Assembly (NCBI GenBank): GCA_945861685.1
Contig: CAMAVO010000014.1
Location: 1 to 32,180 of the forward strand
Direction: 5' to 3'
From: Chitinophaga pinensis
Lineage (GTDB): Bacteria; Bacteroidota; Bacteroidia; SXHM01
Length of the DNA: 32,180 nt
How positions within the stretch are numbered: position 1 is the stretch's first letter; each line of letters starts with the position of its first letter. The notes beneath the pieces are model-generated. The model was not told the DNA's origin and did not search any database. It saw only the letters and a program-made list of their open reading frames with translations. Both the position numbers and the translations under genes were made by a program. Below are positions 16,315-17,600 of this stretch, piece after piece.

Positions 16315-16566
16315 CGTCATGTCAGATTTAGGAATTGTCATGGAGGGTATGAAAAACGGATTACAAAAAGTATAAAATAGGAAGTGAAAAATATAAATTG
16401 TCATGTCAACATTGTAGAGCGTAATGCGAAAAGTGTCAAGAGTAATGGCAACTTTGTCAAGCGGATTGCAAGAAGTATAAAGTGTCATTGTAACTGTGTC
16501 GAGCGTAACAAGAGAAAATAAAAACTGCCTTGCAACTTTATGAATTGTCAAGGCAGTTTTACCAAG
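16315..16566. repeat. Degenerate 21-nt tandem array 2 (12 units)
   Basis: Units at 16315, 16336, 16357, 16378 ... 16546, all exactly 21 nt; e.g. agtaatggcaactttgtcaag / cggattgcaagaagtataaag / tgtcattgtaactgtgtcgag. Confidence 0.85.
16521..16560 (-). terminator. Terminator-like hairpin inside array 2
   Basis: AAAACTGCCTTG ... CAAGGCAGTTTT, followed on the minus strand by TATTTTC; about 20 nt past the stop of the 255-aa gene. Confidence 0.55.
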
Positions 16567-16581
16567 TGTCAAGCGGGAATA

Positions 16582-17349
16582 CTACTTGCGGGGCTTGGTA
16601 AATTTTATTTTGCTGACCTGTTTGTATTGAGGGCTTGTTGCTCCGAAAACTGACTTCACATATTTTTTGACTTCCTGTGCAATGTCATACAAACCAGCCT
16701 TGGCTGCATAAAGTATTTGGTTACGGGCAATACGCGCATTGCTGATAGCAGTCGTAGCGTTAATTACTGCTGTGTTTGTGGTCTTTAAGTTAGTGTGAAA
16801 AGTGCTTAACGTGGCTGGCTGCAATTCCACTTCGTTTGGCGTGTAGGTTGGTTCAGATATTACCAGTTCACCTAATTTGCCAAGGTTCTCAATAATGCTG
16901 TCGTAGCTTTGCTGTGATACGGAAATCTGGTTAGACCCGGGTATAGTAGCGGGTGGAATTGGCGGAATAGGTGGAACAGGCGGAATAGATGGAGGTGTTG
17001 TTATGATACCTTTGCGAGTTCCCTGAACTTTGCGATTAAATGTTTTTGCATCCTTAATCAATTCGTCTGTTGCATCGGTTGCCGCTAAAGCGTTTACAAT
17101 GCGAGTTGCTAATGGCTTAACAGTGCTAAAAGCAATTTGCCGTGCATTGGTAGCATTGATGAAAGCAGTATTAGCAGAGTTTGCATCTTCTACTACTGTG
17201 ATTGCATTGGTGCGAAGCGCGTTTAGCGCGGGTAACTGGATGCTGATTTTTGAAGGATTGTAAGTGCCACCGTAGCCCGTGCAGAAGGAAATCATGTCTT
17301 CAAAGTTGGCTACATTTTTTGCGTGTCCGGTTTCTGATGTTGATGCCAT
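16582..17349 (-). CDS. Unknown helical protein with two repeated domains and a proline-rich linker
   Basis: NFEDMISFCTGYGGTYNPSKISIQLPALNALRTNAIT...NTAFINATNARQIAF and NLGKLGELVISEPTYTPNEVELQPATLSTFHTNLKTTNTAVINATTAISNARIARNQILY are alignable; linker PPSIPPVPPIPPIPPATIPG. Confidence 0.8.
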   Translation of the reverse strand: MASTSETGHAKNVANFEDMISFCTGYGGTYNPSKISIQLPALNALRTNAITVVEDANSANTAFINATNARQIAFSTVKPLATRIVNALAATDATDELIKDAKTFNRKVQGTRKGIITTPPSIPPVPPIPPIPPATIPGSNQISVSQQSYDSIIENLGKLGELVISEPTYTPNEVELQPATLSTFHTNLKTTNTAVINATTAISNARIARNQILYAAKAGLYDIAQEVKKYVKSVFGATSPQYKQVSKIKFTKPRK

Positions 17350-17369
17350 GTTGTTTTGTTTTGGTGTGA

Positions 17370-17600
17370 TTAATTATTTGTGTTTATGAATTCGCTTTGT
17401 GAAACTTCAAGTGCTGCTGCTATTTTGTCTAAGTAATCCAGTGTAATGTTTTTTCGTCCTGCTTCAATGTTCCAAATGTGCTGCCGGTCTGTTCCCAACA
17501 AATCTGCCAATTGTTCAAGCGTAAGATTTTTCTGCTCCCGCAATTGCTTTATCTTTTTGCCGATAAACTGCCTTGACTTATATGGAAAAGAACTACGCAA
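17370..17600 (-). CDS. XRE-family helix-turn-helix regulator
   Basis: IGKKIKQLREQKNLTLEQLADLLGTDRQHIWNIEAGRKNITLDYLDKIAAALEVS. Confidence 0.9.
   Translation of the reverse strand: MRSSFPYKSRQFIGKKIKQLREQKNLTLEQLADLLGTDRQHIWNIEAGRKNITLDYLDKIAAALEVSQSEFINTNN

Follow-up and report, generated by a model that had tools for sequence, protein, structure and literature searches.

Pairing of helical-bundle protein genes with 21-nt tandem arrays in Bacteroidota genomes, a possible two-part chromosomal cassette

Contig CAMAVO010000014.1 of Chitinophaga pinensis (assembly GCA_945861685.1) carries, within the 32,180 nt analyzed here and referred to as the window, a gene for a 255-aa protein (family A) that lies directly beside an array of degenerate 21-nt units. 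This raises the question of whether the gene and the array belong together and, if so, what a repeat of that length does next to such a gene.

Two modules in the window

The window contained two modules, A and B, whose features are listed in Table 1. In module A, the minus-strand order given in the original prediction (an HTH gene, the 255-aa protein gene and a 21-nt array) was recovered with all three elements in place, and an identical order was found around a second family A copy in the same genome, on contig C194 (HTH gene of the same-genome copy at L002:1247-1477). The array is bounded by two hairpins and is too degenerate to have been reported by Tandem Repeats Finder. Identity between positions 21, 42, and 63 nt apart was 0.47, 0.50, and 0.50, respectively, vs 0.28 ± 0.03 in dinucleotide shuffles, and these were the three best of lags 2–69. 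The interval separating the family A module from the next gene also contained a 32-nt tandem repeat in five copies with 91% matches (window positions 15051–15209).

Table 1. Positions of the features of modules A and B and of other elements in the window.
Feature	Position	Strand	Basis or remark
Orphan 21-nt array, intergenic, with no adjoining helical-protein gene	11612..11736 (within 11538-11833)		Repeat detection and lag identity
Terminator-like hairpin, bidirectional, closing the module A array	16221..16289		Sequence, folding
Degenerate 21-nt array 3' of the family A gene	about 16291..16581	-	z>7 core at 16311-16556
Terminator-like hairpin with T run (intrinsic type), inside the first array units	16516..16560	-	Sequence, folding
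Family A protein, 255 aa, two tandem four-helix domains	16582..17349	-	AlphaFold and internal duplication
XRE-type HTH protein, 76 aa, TTG start	17370..17600	-	Pfam HTH_3, E=4e-15; accessory, in a minority of loci
CusA-like RND efflux gene, 3' end bordering module A	17788..20895	-	ORF and sister-species comparison
HTH-like ORF of module B, 92 aa	31198..31476	+	Pfam search without match
21-nt array of module B, 5' of the protein gene	31508..31738	+	TRF score 226; lag-21 identity 0.77
Family B protein, N-terminal 129 aa (about 404 aa in relatives)	31792..32178	+	Cut by the contig end at 32180

The AlphaFold model of the family A protein (pLDDT 92.4, pTM 0.81) had two four-helix domains in tandem, and the profiles of the two halves matched each other (E=1.4e-11), in agreement with the two-domain, duplicated protein that had been predicted. 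The 255-aa sequence had no match in Pfam, PHROG, or NCBIfam, the fold had no match among solved (PDB) or viral structures at E<=0.001, and structure comparison found no DNA-binding relative. Family A proteins were basic, with a mean pI of 9.1.

The locus at 31.2–32.2 kb had been described as a second occurrence of the same three components. It is indeed a module of this kind, although its helical protein was not detectably related to that of family A, so that homology of the A and B proteins was set aside. In family B proteins a helical N-terminus is followed by two beta domains, one transthyretin-like/CarboxypepD_reg and the other a beta-sandwich; the proteins are near neutral, and the whole-chain model had a pTM of only 0.42. 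The 92-aa ORF at the head of module B matched, at E=2e-11, an 89-aa ORF that precedes another family A gene, and an ORF beside the module (window positions 29569–30657) looked by eye like a tyrosine recombinase. Judged by sequence, modules A and B appear to represent two protein families with one kind of array in common. The orphan array in Table 1 had a minus-strand unit, TCAATCGATTGCTTCTTTAAT, similar to the array unit of module B.

Linkage of gene and array across genomes

Among relatives, family A occurred in 18 of 149 and family B in 10 of 100, and in the relatives of the window's own genome nearly every gene of either family had a 21-nt array close by. In GTDB genomes the search for family A yielded 189 matches, and the best 80 were retained; by name these were nearly all Bacteroidota, with two labeled Ignavibacteria. 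Among the 78 loci of this set of 80 in which sequence 3' of the gene was available, 72 (92%) had a 21-nt array directly 3' of it, within about 700 bp, compared with 32 of 2000 (1.6%) windows of equal size drawn at random from control loci. The arrays had a median length of 319 bp, or about 15 units. Homologues without an array, which would have spoken against a common unit, were thus a small minority.

Further unannotated helical proteins came to light through arrays met in the control sequence. Including family B, an array was present in 23 of 24 family B loci (19 of them 5' of the gene with period 21 or its harmonics), in 22 of 28 family E loci (all 5', with period 41 in five), in about 15 of 20 family D loci (3', with periods 21, 43, and 22), and in two of the three loci of the FN3-bearing family C (5'). 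The side of the array is therefore specific to the protein family, being 3' in A and D and 5' in B, C, and E. Families B and E were related to each other (E=5.6e-18 for the N-terminal and 7.1e-34 for the C-terminal part), and sequence profile comparison detected no relationship between A, B/E, and D. On these comparisons the pairing of a gene with a 21-nt array extends to at least two protein groups (B/E and D) apparently unrelated to A. The recurrent, unnamed unit proposed at the outset was accordingly well supported as regards the helical protein and the array, while its XRE regulator did not prove to be a general component.

Period, motif and background of the arrays

The period was nearly always 21 nt and sometimes 22, 41, or 43 nt, values that correspond to about two or four turns of DNA. 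Within the unit, A/T and G/C content alternated between the two turns, and on average there was no sub-repeat of 7 or 10 nt. On the gene strand, family A arrays had a consensus close to AGAAaTATnngCAnCYGCAntt, which was directional (information content about 7.1–7.3 vs 3.15 ± 0.08 in column shuffles). When the motif was cross-validated with relatives of 60% identity or more left out, the mean z was 3.6 on the sense strand, with 76% of values above 2, and 1.05 on the antisense strand. The motif goes with the protein family: the family A model scored 0.5 on B arrays, -0.1 on E/C arrays, and 0.0 on D arrays, and the B, D, and E arrays lacked the motif even though several came from the same genomes as family A. 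It was mostly absent from divergent family A members, and the subgroup resembling the window protein reached a cross-validation score of only 0.7–1.3.

Some of the 41-nt arrays of family E contained palindromes, e.g., CCGTAACGGTTACGG and TTGTGGCGGCCACAA, of a type typical of DNA operators. The period-41 loci were L212, L220, L227, L231, and L232; palindromic 15-mers were present in all three of the arrays inspected for them (L212, L220, and L227). Between close species pairs, array length and copy number were kept in most cases; substitutions fell somewhat less often in conserved columns than elsewhere (odds ratio 0.70, p=0.02), a result of little weight as the column classes came from the same sequences.

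In the window's own genome (599 kb), 21-nt arrays occurred about once per 75 kb, and period 21, with its harmonic 42, was by far the commonest; no 21-nt array was found in 400 kb of three genomes without the helical proteins. About half of these background arrays had no adjoining helical gene, the window array at 11.6 kb being an example. Others of this orphan type lay beside ordinary genes at L142, L143, L150, L195, and L198 in the same genome.

It is highly improbable that the arrays are neutral minisatellites or encode heptad-repeat peptides. The period of 21 does divide by three, and in some arrays a reading frame stays open by chance, but 22, 41, and 43 do not, and peptide-coding heptads are rejected on this ground. 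Neutral repeats are rejected on the linkage (92% vs 1.6%) and on a motif common to arrays of different genera, and there was no 7-nt sub-repeat on average.

Possible modes of action and comparison with known systems

The family-specific motif and side, the period of two or four turns, the duplicated basic protein, and the terminators before the array point to a site acting in cis, with the encoded protein as its binder. The reading tentatively favored is that of a chromosomal two-part cassette, made up of a cis DNA array and a gene whose product, a duplicated helical-bundle protein, would bind this array cooperatively on one face of the helix. The array, with about 15 units spaced every 21 bp, i.e., two helical turns, would act as double-stranded DNA. 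The protein of the neighboring gene would bind it with one copy per unit, each of its two bundles may contact one turn, and successive copies would align on one face as a filament. The complex might, with less support, control transcription of the cassette itself or organize the local DNA. Several results speak against binding, namely a fold with no DNA-binding relative, the near-neutral family B proteins, the divergent family A members without the motif, the low scores of the window-like subgroup, and the existence of orphan arrays; joint inheritance of gene and array could also account for the sharing of the motif. It is conceivable, though doubtful, that the cassettes form phylum-wide chromosomal systems in which several helical proteins, unrelated to one another, would each assemble into a sequence-specific nucleoprotein filament along an array of their own, phased at two turns, as a self-addressed chromatin exchangeable at shared genomic sites.

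The main rival to DNA binding is action at the level of RNA, the array being a leader, a trailer, or a separate small RNA of 21-nt units bound by the helical protein, whether in the manner of type III toxin-antitoxin RNAs or to scaffold an assembly. The array nearly always adjoins the gene, it lies 5' in B, C, and E, the position that toxI has relative to toxN, and its sense strand is poor in G (the C-G skew is 0.049, compared with 0.006 downstream) and forms less stable folds than the antisense strand (p=2e-4 for A, p=0.02 for B), all of which would suit an RNA. This role is nevertheless rather unlikely. In 35 of the 72 family A loci, terminator-like hairpins lie ahead of the array or inside it, so that much of the array probably lies outside the mRNA of the gene, although it may have a separate transcript. 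In addition, the periods cluster at two or four DNA turns, the family A consensus contains no hairpin, and no array matched Rfam above the gathering score, which disposed of the arrays as a known RNA family. The type III toxin-antitoxin systems ToxIN, CptIN, and TenpIN likewise have a small protein gene beside a tandem-repeat array, but their repeats are longer RNA units and their toxin is an endoribonuclease; here the units are of 21 nt, terminators often come before the array, and family A is all-helical in the model, with no Pfam, NCBIfam, or PHROG match and no PDB fold match at E<=0.001 that would place it among ToxN/AbiF-like endoribonucleases.

Alternatively, a host factor may bind the arrays, or the small HTH protein may do so in loci that have it, the helical gene being merely regulated by the binder. 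An XRE gene does adjoin some arrays, small regulator-like ORFs of other kinds precede some family B arrays (ordinary genes precede the rest), and genomes with the helical proteins also contain orphan arrays. This explanation is unlikely, since an HTH gene is absent from most loci and the family A motif is common to A arrays across the phylum but not to the arrays of other families, even in the same genomes. One XRE-like cluster lay directly upstream in six of the 80 named family A loci (the best 80 of 189 matches), which excluded the HTH protein as the core component it was originally taken to be; the XRE gene may instead be an optional regulator of the cassette.

It is also improbable, to a similar degree, that the cassette is a mobile or exchangeable island whose array serves for recognition or insertion and not as a regulatory platform. 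The distribution was patchy, with one to five copies per genome, and the neighbors of family A loci were diverse, ordinary genes. In three species of one genus with highly similar CusA (the window, L276, and L277), the 3' end of this gene was followed by an A module, by a B module (preceded there by a 116-aa regulator-like ORF), or by neither, which implies that the site is exchangeable. However, no recombinase recurred beside the loci, nor did an ATPase/NTPase, replication, or cas gene among family A neighbors, and array length and copy number are, as noted, mostly stable between close species. A search of IMG/VR found family A in a single contig (L140) among 2.9 million viral contigs, and tblastn found no match in plasmids or phages; a phage or plasmid origin was rejected accordingly. 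A defense island was likewise discarded, the neighbors including only scattered methyltransferases.

To return to the cassette as a putative DNA-binding unit, plasmid centromeres (parC with ParR; sopC) offer the parallel of short direct DNA repeats beside a protein gene; the centromere protein binds its repeats cooperatively, as the helical protein may do here. Unlike ParABS and ParMRC, the cassettes have no recurrent partner NTPase gene, are chromosomal with several per genome, and encode helical bundles; known plasmid-centromere binders are ribbon-helix-helix or HTH proteins. The iterons of plasmid and phage origins are similar in that their direct repeats, of about 20 bp, recur every two helical turns, but the protein encoded here matched no replication initiator family, no replication genes recur at the loci, and these are chromosomal and multiple per genome. 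CRISPR arrays are also tandem direct repeats beside protein genes; the units described here abut with no spacers, and no cas genes recur.

No earlier description of the gene-plus-array pairing was found in the open-access literature, which also held nothing relevant on 21-bp arrays of this kind in Bacteroidota, although a description elsewhere is possible. The family libraries searched lack this conserved pairing, in which unannotated proteins go with helically phased arrays. Binding of the arrays by the proteins would make it a new kind of bacterial DNA-organizing or silencing system, and arrays acting as RNA would make it a new repeat-RNA/protein pair. The pairing also occurs in cultured Flavobacterium, Chryseobacterium, Kaistella, and Aequorivita.
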